Source of the DNA: Bacteroides neonati
Lineage (GTDB): Bacteria; Bacteroidota; Bacteroidia; Bacteroidales; Bacteroidaceae
DNA length: 64,000 bases
Assembly: GCF_000499785.1 (NCBI RefSeq)
Contig: NZ_HG726024.1
Span: 62,001-126,000, forward strand
Reading direction: 5' to 3'
A program made the translations under genes and the position numbers. The notes below the pieces were generated by a model. The model saw nothing but the letters and a program-made list of their open reading frames with translations. It was not told where the DNA came from and did not search any database. Positions 200 through 10,519 of the stretch are shown here, piece after piece; position 1 is the first letter of the stretch, and every line of letters starts with the position of its first letter.

Positions 200-1240
200 C
201 TATTTTATTTTTTCATCATCAAAATATATTTTATAAAAATGTTTATTTTTGATTTCATCAAAACCTTGCTCTATTAAGGGGAACTTTTTATCAATAACAA
301 TCTTTACATTATCATCTAGTATAATCGTTTTAGTCATTGACTTGTGTATCTTTTTTAATACATTAGAGGGGATTTCAAAATTATTCATAATTTTGACTCC
401 TGTATTATCTTCATATGCTTTTTTGAAATTATCAAAATTCTGTTCAAGCTGCTTATCCTTAAATAAATCGGCTTTAAAATCATTAATTGATAGTTCACTA
501 TTAGATGCCATGTATTTTTCAGCGTTATGCAATATTTCAGCACATTCTGCATTTGTTAATGATGTGTTACCTTCTGCTGTATGTAGAATAAACTCCTTGC
601 ATATTTTAGAGAGCTCTTCTGTTTGAAAGTATGTATCTTCAATACGTTCAACATGGAGAAAACTATTAGTCCAATAATGTGCATCGTTATTTTTTGTATT
701 ATTTGATACTAAAACAGTATATCCATCACTATCATTTATATCTAAAATAAGACATCCTTTATCTACTTTTTTTAAAGAAATTCCCTTGTTGGAAGTGATA
801 TCGAATGAACTAGTAGTATCTTTTACTGTTAAGAACGTTGATTTTTCTTCTGTTTTTAGTAATGCAACAGCTTTAACTATTTTATTATTCCAGCTAAATC
901 TATCCAACAGAACTATGTAAAAATCACCTTTCTTAATTGATGGGTGAGTTGATTTTTCATATAGAAGTCTGGCTAAATCAATAGAACCCTGATAAAATGA
1001 ATCTGAAAAATTAAAAATATTATTGATAGTGTCTTTTACTAAATTAGAAGGTAATGAGTTCTCAATAGTAAAATGGTATATTTCATTGTCAGAAAATGAG
1101 TTTGTAATTAGTCTTACTAGGTCTTGCTCTATATTTTTATGTGCAATCAAACATTCAGAGAATTTGATGCCTTCACCAAGAAGAAAATTTCCCACTCGAT
1201 GTATTATTAAACTAGAGATTGAAATATTAGAAGAAATCAT
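200..1240 (-). CDS. NA37/YejK-type nucleoid-associated protein, fourth gene of an ABC-3C-like operon
   Basis: 346-residue protein resembling the 37-kDa nucleoid-associated family (NA37, YejK/NdpA type) as found in Bacteroidetes. Seen: an N-terminal IHRVGN-like start, the central block GDFYIVLLDR followed by VKAVALLKTE around residues 105-130, and KGCLILDIND near 165, all in the family order and at its usual length (about 340 aa). Known family members bind the nucleoid; the biochemical role is poorly defined. Its start lies only three bases after the stop of the ATPase gene, so it is almost certainly co-transcribed with the nuclease, middle component and ATPase upstream. That linkage suggests a DNA-binding or chromatin-associated role in the same system (inference). 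Codon use and AT-richness match the three upstream genes. Confidence 0.7.
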   Translation of the reverse strand: MISSNISISSLIIHRVGNFLLGEGIKFSECLIAHKNIEQDLVRLITNSFSDNEIYHFTIENSLPSNLVKDTINNIFNFSDSFYQGSIDLARLLYEKSTHPSIKKGDFYIVLLDRFSWNNKIVKAVALLKTEEKSTFLTVKDTTSSFDITSNKGISLKKVDKGCLILDINDSDGYTVLVSNNTKNNDAHYWTNSFLHVERIEDTYFQTEELSKICKEFILHTAEGNTSLTNAECAEILHNAEKYMASNSELSINDFKADLFKDKQLEQNFDNFKKAYEDNTGVKIMNNFEIPSNVLKKIHKSMTKTIILDDNVKIVIDKKFPLIEQGFDEIKNKHFYKIYFDDEKIK

Positions 1241-1243
1241 ATT

Positions 1244-3112
1244 TTATTGTTTGATTACATCATTTGGTATTAATCCATCATTATTAAAGAAAGTGGCAAC
1301 AGTATGAAAACAATCTAACTCATCATTTCCTTCCCAAAAAGTGGGATCAGTATGTTCTATCATAAATATTTGAAATTTCTCTTTTTTCTCTTCAGTTGCC
1401 CATTTAACAAAATTATTCATTATGTAATATATTTCATAAAGTTTTTGCCTATCAGAGTCATCTTTTGATGTATTATCTGTAAACAAGTAAGGTTTACTGG
1501 GCTGATCAATAAAGAGAAATGTAGGAATAAGACTATCGTTTCTCATTAAACTGAATTTTTGTAATCCTAGAAAGTAGGCAATATGTAGAAACATATAATT
1601 AGACTGACTACCTATGGTTTCCTTTGGAAAAATAGTTTGAGGTTCTTTTATTTTTAACACATATCTTTCAATATCAAAATCTACAATATAATTATTGTAT
1701 TCTCCCATTGTTTTAAATTGATTGTATATATACTGTATATCCTTTTCTAAGTCTAATTTCAAGTTGTTGAGCAGAATTTCAATACTAGGTATTTGCGATG
1801 TACGTTCTAATTCTGATGTATATTGTTGTAAGATACCTTCTGATGAAAATGGTTCAGGCAATTCTTTTTTTGCATATTCCAAATCAGCTTCTATTTTTCC
1901 TGCAAGTTTAAATACATCTGAGAATTTTGCATACTCATTTTTGACCTGAGATCTACTTTTTATCTCAGCCTCTATTTCTTTAATCTTTTTTTGTAAAACA
2001 TTAATCCTGTTGTAAACATCATTGCTTGGCTTTTGAGGTATATTAATTGCTACTTTTATCTTTTTTAAAGATTCCTGAAGAGCGTCTATGAAGCGTATGG
2101 TTTCAATAGATTGAATTAATTCTTCTTTGTTTTCATATAAATATTCAATCGGCTCTAAAGAATCGGTTGATTGTTTGAGATTTTGTATGTACGTATTGTA
2201 TTCTTCTATACATTTAGTGCAATCATCAATTTCTTTTTTAACTCTCCAACGTTCTTTTTCAAATGTTTCTCGCTCTCTAATTATCTTGGAATTGTCAGCG
2301 AGCATACTAAAACGTTTTGATATCGTGCCTAAAATATTAAAAATGTAGTCATTAGTTAATGTGGCAACTTCCGTTTCAGGAGATTCTAACAATCCATTTT
2401 GAAGTGCATTTATGTATATCTTTTCAAGTTTTTTTCTATATTCTTTTTGCTTGGTTATAATGTTATTTTTTTGTCTCTCCATTCGCTTTATCTCAGCTTT
2501 CAAAAAAAGCCTTCTTTTAGTCGATTGGATATACATTGAATTTAGCCCCAAAGCAAAAGGGAATGAATCTTTTATTGAAATTGTATCTTGGAAATAGGAC
2601 GTATCATAAAATTGCTCTTCAATAGTTATGATATTTTCTGTAATTATACAATATGGAAGAAAGCTCCTGAAGCTAATTTGTCTCTTATCTTTAATTCTTT
2701 GTTTGCTCAAATTTAGTATGTCTTCTGTAATTCCCCATTTTTTATTTAATATATTAAGCAAATCTCCTAATTCTATATTAGCCATTGGCATCTTATTGGT
2801 GAGAGCATTTCCTTGAACAAAATATAATTCAGGAGATATAACTCCATTTTTAGGCGCTTTTCTTGCTATAGAATAGTATTTATCATCCTTGAAAAAGCAT
2901 ATTCCATACCATGATACATTTTCATTTATAATCGTTTCAACCAGCTTGGAATAAGGAGCTAATAAACAATAATCTATAATGGATAGAAAACTTGTTTTCC
3001 CTTTAGTTGCCGTCCCTGTTATAACGTTTATCTTATTCGGTTCTAAAAAATAACTTTTAGGTTCAAAATTTCCATTGAACCACAGCTTGATTTCTTTTAT
3101 ATAAAAATTCAT
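1244..3112 (-). CDS. ABC-3C system SMC/RecN-like ATPase (DUF3732 type)
   Basis: 622-residue ABC-type ATPase of the coiled-coil class. The Walker A loop GTATKGKTS is at residues 33-41, followed by the family-typical IIDYCLL. The middle (about 195-420) is rich in Lys/Glu and predicted coiled coil. A signature-like IGSQSNY is at about 500 and a Walker B-like FLFIDQPS at about 533; then MIEHTD as the switch-His region. This order fits DUF3732 ATPases of ABC three-component conflict systems. The start codon overlaps the stop of the middle-component gene as ATGA, and the NA37 gene follows after three bases. Likely role: nucleotide-driven sensing or clamping on DNA that controls the partner nuclease (inference from family). 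Confidence 0.75.
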   Translation of the reverse strand: MNFYIKEIKLWFNGNFEPKSYFLEPNKINVITGTATKGKTSFLSIIDYCLLAPYSKLVETIINENVSWYGICFFKDDKYYSIARKAPKNGVISPELYFVQGNALTNKMPMANIELGDLLNILNKKWGITEDILNLSKQRIKDKRQISFRSFLPYCIITENIITIEEQFYDTSYFQDTISIKDSFPFALGLNSMYIQSTKRRLFLKAEIKRMERQKNNIITKQKEYRKKLEKIYINALQNGLLESPETEVATLTNDYIFNILGTISKRFSMLADNSKIIRERETFEKERWRVKKEIDDCTKCIEEYNTYIQNLKQSTDSLEPIEYLYENKEELIQSIETIRFIDALQESLKKIKVAINIPQKPSNDVYNRINVLQKKIKEIEAEIKSRSQVKNEYAKFSDVFKLAGKIEADLEYAKKELPEPFSSEGILQQYTSELERTSQIPSIEILLNNLKLDLEKDIQYIYNQFKTMGEYNNYIVDFDIERYVLKIKEPQTIFPKETIGSQSNYMFLHIAYFLGLQKFSLMRNDSLIPTFLFIDQPSKPYLFTDNTSKDDSDRQKLYEIYYIMNNFVKWATEEKKEKFQIFMIEHTDPTFWEGNDELDCFHTVATFFNNDGLIPNDVIKQ

Positions 3113-3567
3113 AATCTAATTCTTAATAGTTCATATAATTTTTCCGTAGAATACTTATCTATTAAAGATAAAAATAATGGTATGATATGATTAATTTTAT
3201 TAAATCTATTGCTTAATTTAGAAATGTCACTATTAATAATGGAATTCTTTTCATTTGAGTATATTATTCCGTCTTTATATGATCCGATATTAGAATCAAC
3301 AATTATTTTTAGGCTATTAATAACTATTGGTAGTAACCCATAATAATAGCGGTTATACTCCAATTGATATTTAGCTGTTTGTTTGAAAAAGCATTTAAGA
3401 GATACATTTTTATCTTCATTTAATACATCTACTAGTTGATCATTTAAAAGTACGGAAACAACAATCGCTATACGCGATATTTCAATTACTCTTGTTTGTT
3501 TTAATATTTGAACAATCACAAGAGAAACAATGGCTTCATTATTATATATGTAAAAAAAACTATTCAT
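3109..3567 (-). CDS. ABC-3C middle component-like protein
   Basis: Small helical protein (152 aa from this start) between the nuclease and the ATPase, the position and size typical of the middle component of ABC three-component systems. It has no catalytic motif; the N-terminus runs YIYNNEAIVSLVIVQILKQ, which is the kind of hydrophobic helical start seen in these adaptors. The ATG at 3567-3565 is preferred because it follows the nuclease stop by five bases; an in-frame ATG at 3606 would overlap the nuclease gene by 34 bases. The stop overlaps the ATPase start (ATGA). Assignment rests mainly on gene order and length, so moderate confidence. Confidence 0.6.
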   Translation of the reverse strand: MNSFFYIYNNEAIVSLVIVQILKQTRVIEISRIAIVVSVLLNDQLVDVLNEDKNVSLKCFFKQTAKYQLEYNRYYYGLLPIVINSLKIIVDSNIGSYKDGIIYSNEKNSIINSDISKLSNRFNKINHIIPLFLSLIDKYSTEKLYELLRIRL

Positions 3568-3572
3568 ATTTG

Positions 3573-4805
3573 TTATTTGTAAAGTTTTTCCCAAAAGAAA
3601 TGCCATCCAATTACAGGTGGTTTATTTGCTAGAGTATAGAAGAAACCATTACTCAATATCGTATCTAAATTTTGTTTTCTGTAAAATATGTCTCTATTCC
3701 TAACTTTCGATAAACAGCCGAAAGCTAGAGAAATAATCTCTTCTTCTTGAAACTCATAAAATGGGTCTTTCCTCAATTTTACATGGAGGGAATGATATGC
3801 TTCTTGAAAGGAATTATCCCAATGTCGAATAGCATTTGATTTCATTATTTTATAATCTTCAGGTAATAGTAATCGATTCCAATCTAGCATATGATTATCC
3901 CATGCGAGTTTACAATGGTGTGCCTTTATAATATCCATATCACTATTAATTGCATAGATATCATTAAGTTGTCGAATATAAATCTCTTTTTTTAGGAGTT
4001 CAAAATCCAGTGATGTTTCTATAGGAATATCTCTGATTGGTAGATTTTCTCTATCATACGCTTCTTCAAAACAATTTCTATATTTCTGATTAAAATCGTC
4101 ATATGATAAGGAGAAATTCGTATTGCCTTTTATAGCTGAAAATTTGTCTTCAAAAATTGAAGAAATAAGTAATTTGTATACTTTTTCTAAAGAAGATGGA
4201 TTAAATCTGCAAATTAATTCCAATTCTTTCTTTATCTTAGATATTATGTTATCATTACCAGTTTCATATACTATACTCTTTAATATTCTAGTCAATTTTC
4301 TTTTATCAAAGGATTTGATGTTATTTATGTATTTTTGTATATCTTCATCTTTGGTTTGGTCTGAAAGTTTCTGCAATTCATTTATGACATCATTGATTGA
4401 TATTTTATTTTCTTTTAAATCATCTAGAGTGTTAATGATCGATTTTGCTCCTATATTTTTATTAGTAAATAGAACATATGAAATTGAGTCCAACTCTTGT
4501 ACTGTTTTTTTTGATACTTTAACCCATTCAATCCAATTAGAAAGAGTTTTCCAAAGATCAGAATCTAGACTTGTAAGATTAATAGGAGTTCCATCTGCTC
4601 TTTTTTGAATAGTATGCTTTACTTGTATTAATTTTATGTGACCAGTAGAAGATTCAATATGTACATCATCTTTCGTTTCGTACCCCACTGCTTCTCCTTT
4701 CTCTAATTTGAGCAATTGGTATACGAATGAATAAAATTGATAGGTAAAGGCAGCATCATCGCCACCAGCAGAATGTGTTTTTTCAAAATTACTCAATTCA
4801 TCCAT
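3573..4805 (-). CDS. ABC-3C associated nuclease (Cap4/DUF4297-like PD-(D/E)xK domain plus C-terminal helical domain)
   Basis: 410-residue protein that opens the operon. The N-terminal 110 residues look like the dsDNA endonuclease domain of the Cap4/DUF4297 group: GGDDAAFTYQFYSFVYQLL, then E43 and D46/D47 in GYETKDDVHIE, and the core IQVKH with Q61-x-K63. These are the expected PD-(D/E)xK residues, so the nuclease appears intact. The remaining 300 residues are helical and probably form the partner-binding region used with the ABC ATPase. Together with the two following genes this fits an ABC-3C conflict system in which this protein is the toxic effector. A -7-like promoter element is at 4944-4951. 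Confidence 0.65.
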   Translation of the reverse strand: MDELSNFEKTHSAGGDDAAFTYQFYSFVYQLLKLEKGEAVGYETKDDVHIESSTGHIKLIQVKHTIQKRADGTPINLTSLDSDLWKTLSNWIEWVKVSKKTVQELDSISYVLFTNKNIGAKSIINTLDDLKENKISINDVINELQKLSDQTKDEDIQKYINNIKSFDKRKLTRILKSIVYETGNDNIISKIKKELELICRFNPSSLEKVYKLLISSIFEDKFSAIKGNTNFSLSYDDFNQKYRNCFEEAYDRENLPIRDIPIETSLDFELLKKEIYIRQLNDIYAINSDMDIIKAHHCKLAWDNHMLDWNRLLLPEDYKIMKSNAIRHWDNSFQEAYHSLHVKLRKDPFYEFQEEEIISLAFGCLSKVRNRDIFYRKQNLDTILSNGFFYTLANKPPVIGWHFFWEKLYK

Positions 4806-5087: not shown

Positions 5088-6038
5088 TCATAGTCTACGT
5101 CTTTTCTTTCGTTTTAGTTTGGGGGTTGGATATTGGAAAATCGGTTTTTGTGATAGATCTCCACTAAATGAAATTAGTGAATCAGGTGTTTGATCGTTTC
5201 CCTGATTGAAAGATCGATTGACAGAAGTCCTACTTTCTCCTTCAATAGTAATATGTATATCGCTGTTACAAGCTTGATGACCAGTTTCTCTGTTTTCAAG
5301 ATTGATAGGAAATAAGTTTTCTTGATTGATTTCTATTTTTTTTTCTTTGGGTTGAAGTTCTTGCTCTTGTTGTTTTAGCTGTTCGGATATAGAACTGTTC
5401 TTCACTGTATTATAATAATCGAAAGATTCTATTTGTTGTCGTTGATAACCAAACAGTTTGTCAAAGCCCTGTTCTACCTGTTGGAACAAGGTTACACGAT
5501 CAAAACCTCCTTTGATTATTCCGTTATTGGTATTCCTATGATTGGTAAGTGGTGACAGCTTCTTTTTATTAGCTTGATCTTTCCGGCTCACGATCAAATG
5601 ACAGTGTATATTCAGTTTATTATCTGAGCGTTTACGGTCAAAATGAATTTTGCCATAAAACTTTATATCCGAAACAGATAGTTCTTTATTGAAGTTCTTT
5701 GCATATTCGGGAATAAACACTTCACGGATATAACGTTTCATTGCTTCAACTTGTTCCTGCTCTGTATAACCCATCGCTTGGAGTTCCTTTTCGGATGGGC
5801 TTACATGGATAGCGTAAAACTTGGCATCTGTTTTTAGGAGTTGCCCGATATTAGTATCTATATCTTTTATAACTTTTGATTTGTAGATGTTATCCTCCAT
5901 AAGATTGAAAAAGCCTTCGGTATAGATACCCTTTTCTATCCTTTCTAAATCTTCGTGTTCTAGGTAATTAGCTAACTGACGGCTACTGCCAGCATTATTA
6001 TATGTTCCGTTTGATGGTGGAGCAAAATCTATGTGCAT
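5088..6038 (-). CDS. MobB-like relaxase (Bacteroides mobilization protein, DUF5712 type)
   Basis: 316-residue protein expected to nick the element at oriT and pilot the strand during mobilization. Seen: YAIHVSPS around residues 75-82, and the relaxase metal-binding pair in NIHCHLIVSR with H145 and H147; an N-terminal ANYLEHED block is also typical of the Bacteroidetes group. The C-terminus (about 215-316) is polar and ends in a Lys/Arg run, as often seen in these mobilization proteins. It starts four bases after the BfmA-like gene, so the two form one unit, and the probable oriT lies just upstream of both. Confidence 0.75.
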   Translation of the reverse strand: MHIDFAPPSNGTYNNAGSSRQLANYLEHEDLERIEKGIYTEGFFNLMEDNIYKSKVIKDIDTNIGQLLKTDAKFYAIHVSPSEKELQAMGYTEQEQVEAMKRYIREVFIPEYAKNFNKELSVSDIKFYGKIHFDRKRSDNKLNIHCHLIVSRKDQANKKKLSPLTNHRNTNNGIIKGGFDRVTLFQQVEQGFDKLFGYQRQQIESFDYYNTVKNSSISEQLKQQEQELQPKEKKIEINQENLFPINLENRETGHQACNSDIHITIEGESRTSVNRSFNQGNDQTPDSLISFSGDLSQKPIFQYPTPKLKRKKRRRL

Positions 6039-6042
6039 AATC

Positions 6043-6627
6043 TTATGTGTTTATCAGATTACTGATTTCAGCTTTTAGGTTATCTTTTCTTTTGCTATCC
6101 ATCACACCACAAGCGGATAGTTCCGAATAGAGTTGTATCAGGTGGAGTAACTTTTTATAATCCCGTTGGTGTATCTGGTAGAGTGCGTTAATTTGTTTCG
6201 ATTGGTTGTTTATCACATCGGCATGATTACAGAACTGTTCACTTAACTTTTTGAGTACGACTGTTTGTCTCTCCTGACTGGTTTCCAGTTGAGAGAGAAT
6301 GAGAGTTTCTAAAGTTTTGCCGATAGTATCAAAGCGTAAAGCGATAGAGTTGGTTGTCCGAATCATGGGATTCAGTTGTTCTTCCTCATAGTGACGAATG
6401 AAGCGTATAATATCATCCTGTCTCTTATTTATTTTCGCCAGTTCTGATTTTACGGATTCAGGAGCTTCGGAAGGGTTGATGTGTGCCTTATCAATATACC
6501 CGAACGCCAACTTTACAACTTCACTCTTTTTCAGTGAATAGCGTTTGCATATTTTCTCTACCAAAGCTGCCGTTTCCTTGTCAATGGAAATGGTAGTAAA
6601 TATCGTTTTTCGACTGCTGTTTGTCAT
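6043..6627 (-). CDS. BfmA/BtgA-family mobilization accessory protein
   Basis: 194-residue protein with an N-terminal ribbon-helix-helix-like segment (about 8-50: TTISIDKETAALVEKICKRY followed by LKKSEVVKLAFGYI) and a long helical C-terminus. This layout is that of the BfmA/BtgA proteins of Bacteroides mobilizable elements, which bind oriT and help the relaxase. It precedes the relaxase gene by four bases and follows the palindrome-rich region 6660-6800, consistent with binding there. No catalytic residues are expected. Confidence 0.75.
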   Translation of the reverse strand: MTNSSRKTIFTTISIDKETAALVEKICKRYSLKKSEVVKLAFGYIDKAHINPSEAPESVKSELAKINKRQDDIIRFIRHYEEEQLNPMIRTTNSIALRFDTIGKTLETLILSQLETSQERQTVVLKKLSEQFCNHADVINNQSKQINALYQIHQRDYKKLLHLIQLYSELSACGVMDSKRKDNLKAEISNLINT

Positions 6628-6881: not shown

Positions 6882-6986
6882 TTACCCACCTTGGTTTTCC
6901 TCAGTTTGCTTATCGAGTTGGTTTTCCTTTTTGAACCGTTCGTATGTCTTACAGTCGGCATTTTCTTGAATAAATACCCGAATATC
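6882..6986 (-). CDS. 3' exon of an intron-split HTH (excisionase-like) protein
   Basis: This is the second exon of the gene whose first exon is at 9472-9717. It begins at GAT (6986) and encodes DIRVFIQENADCKTYERFKK and a short Gln/Glu-rich tail, ending in TAA at 6882. Joining the exons at the group II intron boundaries gives an uninterrupted 116-residue protein whose junction KTYYRAA-DIRVFI matches the usual sequence of Bacteroides single-HTH regulators found at element ends. Without splicing, the 5' part stops after three intron codons. Splicing in phase 0 is therefore required for a full product. Confidence 0.7.
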   Translation of the reverse strand, partial: DIRVFIQENADCKTYERFKKENQLDKQTEENQGG

Positions 6987-7083
6987 GTAGGCTAAGCACC
7001 CACCGCCCTTTTCCATATTGCTATGGCGGGTTTGCAGATGCTCGCCCCCAAACCGGACGTACACCTTTCAATGTATCCGGCTT
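6987..7083 (-). ncRNA. group II intron domains V and VI
   Basis: Domain V is at about 7083-7050. On the minus strand it starts with the catalytic triad AGC in AGCCGGA, rises through a short stem to a GAAA tetraloop and returns through CG and UCCGGUU, the classic 34-base hairpin with a two-base bulge. Domain VI follows (about 7040-6987) and contains CCATA-GCAA-TATGG, a five-pair stem with a GNRA loop, with an A seven bases from the 3' end that could be the branch point. The protein gene ends 18 bases before domain V. Confidence 0.8.
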
Positions 7084-7101
7084 TCCATTAATACCAAGAA
7101 C

Positions 7102-8907
7102 TTAGCCGTTATCCATTCGTTGCCTGCATTTTTCACATACGACAAGTGTTTTCCGGTTCCGTTTAATCATCAGGCGTTCCCAATCATTGTCACCCTTTAG
7201 AGTTTTAAGATTTCGTACCTGAAGCATGGAAACTTCCCCTTTGGCACCGCATAGCTCGCATTGGCAGGATTGAAGTCGCCTTATCAATGTTGGTTCTTTT
7301 ACGCCAACATTGGCAAAGAACGGCTCTTTTTCTGAATAGAATTTACTTGTCCCTCTTTGACAGAAACCTTTATTATAGAATATCCGATACTTGGTCTTCC
7401 CATTTTTGTCGATATAAGGCACTGCAAAATTCTTGTCTTTTGTGTATTGACTGATCACTTTGCTTACCGTACTGTTCAGCTTTTGGGAGAGAGTCTTGTA
7501 CATACTGTATTCCATGATATGATAAAAGTTGTACAGGTTGTAGCTGTTACTCGCTATGGAATAATAGTTGTACAGTCCTTGGATTTCCGCATTGTATTGC
7601 GTGACTATATCCAAAATGGAGTTGTTAGTGATTCTTTTGCGGGCTTTGGGCTTCCAAATGGTCTTGCCTTTATACCTTTCAAAATCGAGTACATCATATT
7701 GTTGAAGTTTCTTTTTCATCACTTCTGATGTGATTTTCAGTACCACCTTGTTATTATGGATCCTTGCATATATATTTGACTTAGTTTTCTCAATATTGTC
7801 CGATTGGCGGACAAATATATCGTATCCTAAGAATTTTGCAGGCTTCCGGGCATTGGTTATCAAAGTCTTATCATCTGAAAGTTCAAGCCTGAGTATATTT
7901 TGCATCCACTGGGCTATCATTTCTTTCGTTTCTTGACAATCCTTTTGACTTCCGATTATTCCGATCAGAAAATCGTCCGCGTATCTAACGTAACGCATCC
8001 TCCGGAAATTACTATCCATAGGGTCTCCACTTGGCATTCTCCTTATCTGCTTCTCGTATTCTCTAACTTGTTCCAACTTCTCTGTTTTTACTTTTTCATC
8101 TTTTTCTGTTTCAATGGACTTTAACAGCAGACACTTCTTATTATATAATTTGTTGGTTTTCGGGAATATCCGTCTCTTTCTGCCTCCTTTACGGAATTCA
8201 TCACACACTCTTTGCATATATTTATCGAACTTGTCGAGGTATATATTAGCTAATATCGGGCTAATAATACCACCTTGTGGAGTTCCACTATATGTTCTGT
8301 GGAATTTCCAGTTCTCTAAATATCCCGCACGAAGGAACTTTCTGATCAGACGAATAAAGCGTTCGTCTTCTATCTTTTCCTTGAGTATGCTTATCAGGAC
8401 TTCATGGCTTATATTATCGAAGAACCCTTTAATGTCCCCTTCAACGAACCATTTGGTACCTGTGTATTCACGCTTGATTGTCAGCAGGGCTGTGTGACAA
8501 CTCCTTTCAGGGCGGAATCCGTGGGATGTATTGGAAAAGCCATCTTCATAGATTGCCTCCAGTATCATTCTTGTCACCTCCTGTACCAGTTTGTCATCAA
8601 AAGAGGGTATCCCAAGAGGGCGCATTTTACCGTTCTTCTTTGGTATATACACTCTCTTAGCCGGACGTGGCTGATATGTCTCATCTTTTAATGAGGCTAT
8701 CAGTGCCTCAATACGAGGTATGCTCATCCGGTCTGCCGTTTTCCCGTCAGTCCCAGCTGTCATATTGCCCACTTTAGCGTAAATGTTTTGGTAGGCAACA
8801 TAAAACATTTCTGTATTGAATAAAATCCGATACAACCGTTTATATTTATAGTTTAAAGTATTGCTGTGTTCAGCTAAGCTTTTTAATACTCTTTCTGGAT
8901 TTCTCAT
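7102..8907 (-). CDS. ltrA: group II intron-encoded reverse transcriptase/maturase
   Basis: 601-residue multifunctional intron protein from the ATG at 8907 (an open frame continues up to 9072, but MRNPERVLKSLAEHS is the usual family start and leaves room for domains I-III). Reverse transcriptase blocks are intact: IPKKNGKMRPLGIP, the GTPQGGIISPILANIYL block, and the active site YADD within RYVRYADDFLIG. A maturase (X) domain follows. The C-terminus still has the two Cys pairs of the HNH endonuclease (CELC and CEKC) and the RKTLVVC block, but positions normally held by catalytic histidines read LQ, R and D. The endonuclease is therefore probably inactive, while splicing and reverse transcription may persist. 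Confidence 0.88.
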   Translation of the reverse strand: MRNPERVLKSLAEHSNTLNYKYKRLYRILFNTEMFYVAYQNIYAKVGNMTAGTDGKTADRMSIPRIEALIASLKDETYQPRPAKRVYIPKKNGKMRPLGIPSFDDKLVQEVTRMILEAIYEDGFSNTSHGFRPERSCHTALLTIKREYTGTKWFVEGDIKGFFDNISHEVLISILKEKIEDERFIRLIRKFLRAGYLENWKFHRTYSGTPQGGIISPILANIYLDKFDKYMQRVCDEFRKGGRKRRIFPKTNKLYNKKCLLLKSIETEKDEKVKTEKLEQVREYEKQIRRMPSGDPMDSNFRRMRYVRYADDFLIGIIGSQKDCQETKEMIAQWMQNILRLELSDDKTLITNARKPAKFLGYDIFVRQSDNIEKTKSNIYARIHNNKVVLKITSEVMKKKLQQYDVLDFERYKGKTIWKPKARKRITNNSILDIVTQYNAEIQGLYNYYSIASNSYNLYNFYHIMEYSMYKTLSQKLNSTVSKVISQYTKDKNFAVPYIDKNGKTKYRIFYNKGFCQRGTSKFYSEKEPFFANVGVKEPTLIRRLQSCQCELCGAKGEVSMLQVRNLKTLKGDNDWERLMIKRNRKTLVVCEKCRQRMDNG

Positions 8908-9471
8908 AATGTCTCTCACATTTTCCGTTAATTGTATTAAGATATTAACTGCCTCCCTTCGCCATGTATGAGGCTTTCCCTCACTCGGACTACTACGGAG
9001 GCTCCGTTGCCATGCCGGATATTCAGAGGACAATACCTCATAACCTGTTAACAGGCGTTCCGGTTTAGGCAATCCCCATTTAGATATGTATCAACTAGTG
9101 GCGCGATGAATTGTCGGATATGGCATTCAACCTTTCCGCTTATTGCGGCTATGTCGTGATAAGTTCTTGCCGTTAGCTCGCCAATCCGATAAGCTACGGT
9201 ATCACAAAAAGACGTTTATAAATATCTTACGTCTTTACCTACAGATGAGTCATAGGTCTACCATTTTATCAATCCAGACATTATCCTCATATTCATCTTT
9301 TCACCTTGCCGTTCAGTCGCAACTTGATATTTAGTTGACTTACGGCTTTCCCGACATGCTACACTCCCTGTCCCGTTTCCGTTTCAGATAAGTCGGGTGA
9401 TGATAGATGTGAAGAACACTTACCTAATCTCCTGCCAAAGAGATATTTGATACATATCCTTATGGGCGCAC

Positions 9472-9717
9472 AGCAGCACGATAATAGGTTTTATGACTTA
9501 TCATAAAGTAAGGAAGTTTGCCACTTGCCCGATAGCGTTGCAGGGTTCGGAAAGATACTTTCAACAGGAAAGCTAAATCCTGATTATCCAATATCTTGTC
9601 GTTAGGATCTAATATTTTGTCGGTATTGATAAGGGATTTTAGGTCTTGTCCGATTTCGGAGAGTTTTTTTGATAGCCGTTCCATCCACTTGTCGAAGTTT
9701 TCGTTGTCTATATACAT
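9472..9717 (-). CDS. 5' exon of an intron-split HTH (excisionase-like) protein
   Basis: First exon, 82 codons, of a small DNA-binding protein. It holds a MerR/excisionase-type helix-turn-helix: LDNQDLAFLLKVSFRTLQRY, then the wing GKLPYFMISHKTYYR. Such proteins are common near the mobilization and integration genes of Bacteroides elements, where they act as excision or regulation factors. Translation without splicing would run three codons into the intron and stop at 9460. The exon ends at a codon boundary (GCT at 9474-9472), just before the intron GTGCG. Confidence 0.7.
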
Positions 9718-9846: not shown

Positions 9847-10519
9847 TTATAGATAGCCTTTCTTTTTGCTTTCTTCATTAATGGCTTTACGAAGCGTATC
9901 TAAAAATTCGGTTATTTTTGATGGTTTACGACTAACGACACTTTCATGCTTCTTATGCACATCGCCCAATTTAATATTGAAAAGGTATTCAAAGGCTCTT
10001 CCGATTTCTGTAAGTGGTGCTTCTGTACCAGTGCGCGTTACCACTCTTTTAGATAGGAACAATCCACTAACTATCTCCATAATTTCAATAAGATAGGTTT
10101 CGTCTGTAAGGTAGAGCGGCGAGAGTGGAAGTTTATTCTTCCGGTTTTGGAATTGAACCGGATATTTAATTTGCATATTGAGTATGCGGATTTCCGTATT
10201 TACAAGTCCTATCGCTTCATCAATAAGCAATGACAAGGCGTTTTTCCCCCTGCTCAAATTGTACTCGATACGACTTGAGCCTGTTTAGTCCAAAAGAGAA
10301 GTAACGTAATAATACAGCGTAGTCCTGTTCCTTTATAGCAATACTTACTAAGTGATTGGCAAGTTCTTGCAATGCGGGCGTAAAATCATTTACGGCAAAC
10401 TCTTTCTGTGAGTGTTCCGACAATAGTCGGAAAAATCTCAAATCTGATAAGTCTTTCATAATTAATACATTTACATATTGATGAATTGCGTTGCTTTGCT
10501 GAGGATTGCGTTGATACAA
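9847..10519 (-). pseudogene. RteC-like regulator split by a frameshift
   Basis: Two overlapping minus-strand frames together look like one regulator. The 5' frame (10519-10220, 99 codons) runs to QFEQGEK and then leaves frame; the 3' frame (10257-9847) has no ATG at its start (only TTG) and continues NALSLLIDEA. Its end, IGRAFEYLFNIKLGD and then ITEFLDTLRKAI, fits the C-terminal region of RteC, the CTnDOT excision regulator. The frames meet at a run of five G followed by five A (10250-10241 on the minus strand); one base fewer would restore a single protein of about 225 aa. It could be a true pseudogene, a phase-variable tract or a sequencing error. Confidence 0.55.

Follow-up and report, generated by a model that had tools for sequence, protein, structure and literature searches.

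A predicted LtrA-like group II intron in an HTH gene of a Bacteroides mobilization module and its site-faithful relatives in Bacteroidales conjugative elements

Within the 64,000-nucleotide stretch of Bacteroides neonati DNA analysed here (the window), a gene for an HTH_17 protein is interrupted by what its sequence identifies as a group II intron with an LtrA-like intron protein (IEP). Very probably, this mobile intron of the LtrA kind has retrohomed into the gene, splices exactly, and belongs to a site-faithful radiation of introns in Bacteroidales. The HTH gene starts at 9717 on the minus strand, and the parts of the interrupted gene are the following:

9472..9717, minus strand: exon 1 of the HTH_17 gene, codons 1-82, with a partial HTH_17 match
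6987..9471, minus strand: group II intron of 2485 nt, 5' GTGCG and 3' AC, without counterpart at 79/80 homologous loci
6882..6986, minus strand: exon 2 of the HTH_17 gene, 34 codons plus the stop
7102..8907, minus strand: intron ORF of 601 aa, reverse transcriptase/maturase/HNH endonuclease by domain matches, YADD at 7983-7972
6987..7085, minus strand: domain V-VI, by Rfam match and fold
6993, minus strand: candidate bulged A, seventh base from the intron 3' end, unpaired in the fold of the 3' region
9460..9462, minus strand: in-frame stop read if the intron stays in, the protein then ending in ...YYRAAVRP

The last bases of exon 1 are TATCGTGCTGCT at 9472, the intron opens with GTGCGCCC at 9471 and closes with TTAGCCTAC at 6987, and exon 2 runs from GATATTCGG (6986) to the stop codon (6882). 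These ends carry the GUGYG and AY typical of group II introns. The match of domain V-VI to Rfam RF00029 (7085-6987; 57.1 bits, cut-off 40) finishes on the last predicted intron base, with the putative bulged A of domain VI close to the 3' end. Both extremities are more stably folded than shuffled sequence, as the 5' region beats 100 shuffles (z -4.15) and the 3' region 200 shuffles (z = -3.88). The ORF contains RVT_1, Intron_maturas2 and AI2M-like HNH domains, each above cut-off, while the match to TIGR04416 is slightly below it (296.2 bits, cut-off 300). The presence of the three domains in domain IV, and a best match among solved structures to PDB LtrA (500 bits over residues 9-597, i.e., 589 of the 601), place the intron in the LtrA kind. 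We take its class to be ML/IIA, a name carried over from LtrA, the IEP tree described below being built from Bacteroidales relatives only. The source genome contains one copy of the intron. The original prediction of a group II intron with exact in-frame junctions at 9471/6987 is borne out to the base by RF00029, by the intron ends and by an intronless allele in Parabacteroides.

This allele was obtained by using exon 1 as query in species genomes, the best 80 of 104 relatives being kept. The junction is uninterrupted at 79 of these 80 HTH loci (in two of the 79, L024 and L082, the reading frame is broken elsewhere in the gene), and the intron is present at a single one, L013 of Bacteroides cutis. 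At the Parabacteroides locus, L007, exon 1 (246/246 nt) and exon 2 (105/105 nt) are identical to those of the window with nothing in between, and the 4 kb upstream are 98.9% identical to the source DNA. The L007 protein of 116 aa reads ...KTYYRAADIRVFIQ... across the junction, which is the sequence predicted from the joined exons. Hence, the product predicted from joining exists as an actual protein in another genome, and the intron has been inserted cleanly. It had been proposed that joining the exons restores a full-length HTH protein and that intronless relatives would be informative in this respect; both proposals hold. The intact L007 protein matches HTH_17 with 34.8 bits over profile positions 2-50 of 51. 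Without splicing, the stop lying 9 nt inside the intron would limit the product to 85 aa and cut the HTH domain short; because of this in-frame stop (9462-9460), the match of the unspliced product ends at profile position 39 of 51, with 26.5 bits, under the cut-off of 27.

In B. cutis, the intron starts at the same codon of the same HTH gene and is 96.8% identical to the focal intron over 2263 bp, whereas exon 1 is identical at only 212 of 246 nt (34 differences, 86%). As the intron is much more alike than the exon, it moved more recently than the two alleles diverged; judging from this alignment, it moves independently of the HTH gene. The L013 contig stops inside the intron, so that the 5' junction is seen there while the 3' half of the intron is absent from the assembly, and when the remainder of the intron and exon 2 were looked for in the B. 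cutis genome, the sole match was to a different intron.

The surroundings of the HTH gene on the minus strand were as follows:

6043..6627, minus strand: BfmA/BtgA-family mobilization protein, downstream neighbour (NF041200, 50.3 bits, cut-off 24)
5088..6038, minus strand: MobB-like relaxase / DUF5712 (DUF5712, 235.2 bits; MobB_relaxase, 152.6 bits, below the cut-off of 200)
9847..10519, minus strand: rteC-like gene upstream, in two overlapping frames, from ORF reading and a profile match

In 67 of the 80 loci, the HTH gene has a BfmA match on its downstream side, beginning at 595-662 nt from the HTH start; among the 13 loci without it, some are ended by a contig edge and L013 is interrupted by the intron. 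Another contig of the source genome carries a further rteC-HTH-bfmA module, in which the HTH gene is intact. From this conserved order, the HTH gene is to be seen as a member of an HTH-bfmA-mobB mobilization module. It had been suggested that the host is an excision factor and that the habitat is exceptional for a group II intron. The HTH_17-type fold expected of an excisionase is indeed present in the intact homologue (34.8 bits), but with the two integrases of the window as the only probes no integrase linkage was found, the neighbours being the rteC-like, bfmA and mobB genes, and no analysis pointed to excision activity. For this neighbourhood, a role in regulating the mobilization operon, or an accessory role in it, would be more fitting. 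As for the habitat, the insertion lies in a gene that belongs to a mobile element and thus makes no exception to where group II introns usually reside. The proposed dependence on splicing stands for the HTH protein, which is full length only with the intron out, and is doubtful for the element as a whole, since an intact HTH paralogue occurs in the source genome. Besides, a minus-strand cluster at 200-4805 of the window, beside the mobilization genes, encodes an NA37-like nucleoid protein and a DUF3732 ATPase-like protein and gives a weak Cap4-nuclease match below cut-off; it is perhaps a defence island.

A separate observation concerns the rteC-like gene (10519-9847), whose two overlapping frames join at a G5A5 run, GGGGGAAAAA, at 10250-10241. 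A G5A4-6 run occurs at this site in 44 of the 80 loci (L007-L086; L055 not evaluable), and in 43 of the 44 the same +1 relation links the first ORF (...QGEK...) to the second (...RGKNAL...). Among the other 36 loci, 19 have a single rteC ORF of at least 208 codons. The run looks like a conserved recoding site (programmed frameshift or slippage) in one RteC subfamily; a literature search for rteC with frameshift returned nothing relevant.

Pairing between intron and exons was then considered, with two candidate sites in the intron:

9179..9185, minus strand: EBS1 candidate AUUGGCG, pairing 6/7 with exon positions -7 to -1, three pairs being G-U, in a register chosen post hoc
9240..9244, minus strand: EBS2 candidate CUGUA, pairing 4/5 with exon positions -12 to -8, in a register chosen post hoc

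The EBS1 location was taken by homology to other introns. When own exons were compared with swapped ones over 18 insertion positions, 0/20000 permutations were as good, for EBS1 as well as for EBS2, in a set of 57 introns from which duplicates, L100 and seven loci (ends unclear or gene unassigned) had been removed. For the focal intron itself, the EBS1 energy was equalled or beaten by 1 of 56 foreign exons, with the duplex lying on the stem side of a hairpin, outside the loop, and the EBS2 energy was equalled or beaten by 24 of 56. With an HTH allele like that of L033, the focal EBS1 would pair at 7/7 places. The pairing of the B. cutis copy is poor, 29 of 56 foreign exons being as good overall.

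Relatives of the IEP were then counted at E <= 1e-60 in genome sets that overlap. They occur in 14 of 301 genomes of the family, 28 of 158 of the genus and 5 of 393 of the order, as well as in 14 of the 39 genomes reached from 42 of the 80 HTH loci and in 4 of the 25 genomes from one further genus. The 5' end was placed for 90 copies, of which 88 were unique by flanking sequence, L087 and L088 being the only plasmid copies included. Conjugative-element genes host 71 of these 88 insertions, spread over 23 positions and about 12 gene families; L103 and L146 are assigned to their position from the 3' side alone, and L123, scored at the primase-like position, has a stop codon three codons ahead of the insertion. 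The remaining 17 lie elsewhere or without gene assignment, ten of them in Parabacteroides gordonii; they include L088, which has 14 open residues upstream and a 3' end that was not found. Host genes were named by a family search run on each half separately. The genes supported as hosts are those for relaxase, coupling protein, VirB4-like ATPase, TraI, TraN, DUF4134, integrase, primase-like, ArdC, helicase-like, topoisomerase-like and HTH proteins. By position, the TraG P-loop ATPase was hit at 4, the MobC coupling protein and ArdC at 3 each, and the MobB relaxase and tyrosine integrase at 2 each, further hosts being Toprim_2 primase-like, Toprim topoisomerase-like, SNF2 helicase-like (2 positions, weak scores), TraN/DUF4138 and DUF4134 proteins. 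The two TraI positions are without Pfam match and owe their name to the annotation of L087 and a weak TrbJ match.

In the initial reading of the frame, the phase was picked for the longest open flanks and the insertions were in-frame partly by construction; alignment of each flank apart to intronless homologues gave an independent check. The two halves abut in 15/15 introns (14 positions), with no gap in 4 and with one column, a split codon, in 11. This is illustrated by the relaxase, in which the upstream half matches the Pfam profile as far as position 95 and the downstream half from position 96 on. Searches with VirB4 and the coupling protein in 247 genomes each yielded few full-length relatives because the element of the window is of a rare type, and gene neighbourhoods of other elements were used in their place. 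In viral contigs, 17 IEP relatives were found, the one examined (L157) being in a primase-like gene, and the junction pattern for the HTH position gave 0 matches there. In a phage collection, six records were partly similar, with none at the HTH position among the matches listed. In the open-access literature searched, group II introns were not found described at these positions of Bacteroidales elements, which is weak evidence of absence, and the accessible portion of PMC6907783 makes general mention only of gut-element kin of the focal intron.

Several individual copies deserve mention in their own right. In the P. gordonii genome (G825, the genome of locus L008), thirteen copies (L195, L203, L207, L209, L211, L213-L216, L222-L225) have equal IEP scores; three are at the VirB4-m position of the VirB4-like ATPase, and the other ten are off-site and preceded by similar 5' exon sequence, which suggests a burst of ectopic retrotransposition. 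At L275 (2151-14595 of G249:C1, minus strand), five head-to-tail copies, 100% identical (5 x 2489 bp), stand in one coupling-protein gene, as either a true tandem or an assembly effect. Nine introns (L095, L096, L105, L110, L114, L118, L124, L125, L132) split a tyrosine integrase right after TTQIYA, a site which we take to adjoin the catalytic tyrosine. The intron protein of L157 (IMGVR_UViG_2514885005_000001), at the primase-like position, is nearly the same as that of the Bacteroides copy L093. In Bacillus phage BUCT083 (ON107264.1, 85334-87811), a partial intron match overlaps an annotated DNA polymerase gene.

A maximum-likelihood tree was built from 56 distinct IEPs (73 rows before identical ones were dropped, which took the ectopic P. 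gordonii copies, whose protein equals that of a VirB4-m row, out of the label count). The 24 insertion-site labels require 24 changes on this tree for a minimum of 23, whereas shuffled labels require 44.9 on average, with 0/200 shuffles as low as 24. The HTH introns of the window and of B. cutis group together as sisters on their own branch (length 0.69, support 100/100). According to this tree, nearly every lineage is faithful to one position in one conjugative-element gene. L098 and L100, without gene assignment, nest within site clades, which together with the ectopic P. gordonii copies shows that off-site jumps do happen.

Some sites look motif-like by eye, presumably residues adjoining the catalytic tyrosine of integrases and the histidine motif of relaxases. 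A general preference for conserved protein positions was examined and dropped: for 15 introns, which represent 14 positions as two of them share the primase position, Fisher's p was 0.23. On average over the 15 introns, a fraction of 0.39 of the windows equalled or exceeded the junction in conservation; for the HTH position, this fraction was 0.459. Of 23 representative introns tried, these 15 had at least 5 intronless homologues, too few being available for TyrInt-Tyr, ArdC-a, ArdC-b, ArdC-c, DUF4134, the two helicase-like introns and Topo. This result agrees with the accessible part of Swithers et al. (2009; PMC2814812), in which group II introns are without preference for conserved positions.

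The focal intron resembles Ll.LtrB of Lactococcus lactis and Ef.PcfG of Enterococcus faecalis, a relative of Ll.LtrB according to the accessible text of PMC5072309, in its LtrA-type IEP, its 5' GTGCG and its host gene in a conjugative element. The IEP is about 43% identical, over 99% of the protein, to LtrA and its close relatives in plasmid records. The two known introns differ in being hosted by a relaxase gene instead of an HTH_17 gene of a Bacteroides mobilization module, and their splicing and mobility have been shown experimentally, whereas those of the focal intron are predicted; as far as anatomy tells, it would work like Ll.LtrB. A closer relative, L087, on the B. ovatus plasmid NZ_CP081918.1, has an IEP about 54% identical, the same 5' and 3' ends and a conjugation gene as host, but lies in another gene and position (annotated TraI), the HTH introns standing on their own branch. 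In the mechanism that we propose, an LtrA-kind intron would have retrohomed into the HTH_17 gene within the mobilization module that a Bacteroides conjugative element carries. Once transcribed, the intron would fold in the pre-mRNA, bind its own maturase and excise itself, joining the exons exactly and allowing synthesis of the 116-aa HTH protein. From a message left unspliced, only the truncated 85-aa protein would be made.

No sign of an assembly or annotation artefact was found, and one is extremely improbable given that L013, from a second genome, has this intron at the identical codon, and given the intron's structure and exact ends. An intron that is present but splices poorly or never would leave the HTH gene knocked out, with the 85-aa protein as sole product. 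The imperfect exon pairing and the stop codon 9 nt inside the intron are in keeping with such a state, the insertion may be too young for decay to be visible as the exons equal the empty allele, and the intact paralogue could compensate for the loss. Yet domain V-VI and every IEP domain look intact, and the lineage has been kept at one position in two alleles 14% apart, unlike a dead copy; we regard poor splicing as distinctly unlikely. It is possible, although we lean against it, that the intron splices and nonetheless acts as a brake, lowering the HTH protein and so mobilization. This would parallel Ll.LtrB in the ltrB relaxase gene, which reduces relaxase expression and conjugation according to the accessible part of Qu et al. 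(2018; PMC6003770), and would fit the LtrA-like IEP and the related introns in relaxase, coupling-protein and ATPase genes, while the intact HTH paralogue speaks against it. The preferred reading remains that of a retrohomed intron of the LtrA kind with exact splicing.

The focal intron is ordinary in kind, and the site-faithful radiation through transfer genes is the part worth following. In this LtrA-like radiation of Bacteroidales conjugative elements, nearly every lineage keeps to one codon position and at least 23 positions are occupied. Because the transfer machinery would need splicing, the introns might act together as a shared brake or switch on gut gene transfer; this broader reading is rather doubtful at present. 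The HTH gene of a mobilization module is a type of host for LtrA-like introns that is new to us, and the identical empty allele makes splicing and homing cleanly testable. In annotation pipelines, such genes would be labelled as broken or short though they may be whole once spliced. The wider set, which is of more consequence, suggests that splicing may have become a requirement, in one element or another, for a large part of the Bacteroidales conjugation machinery.
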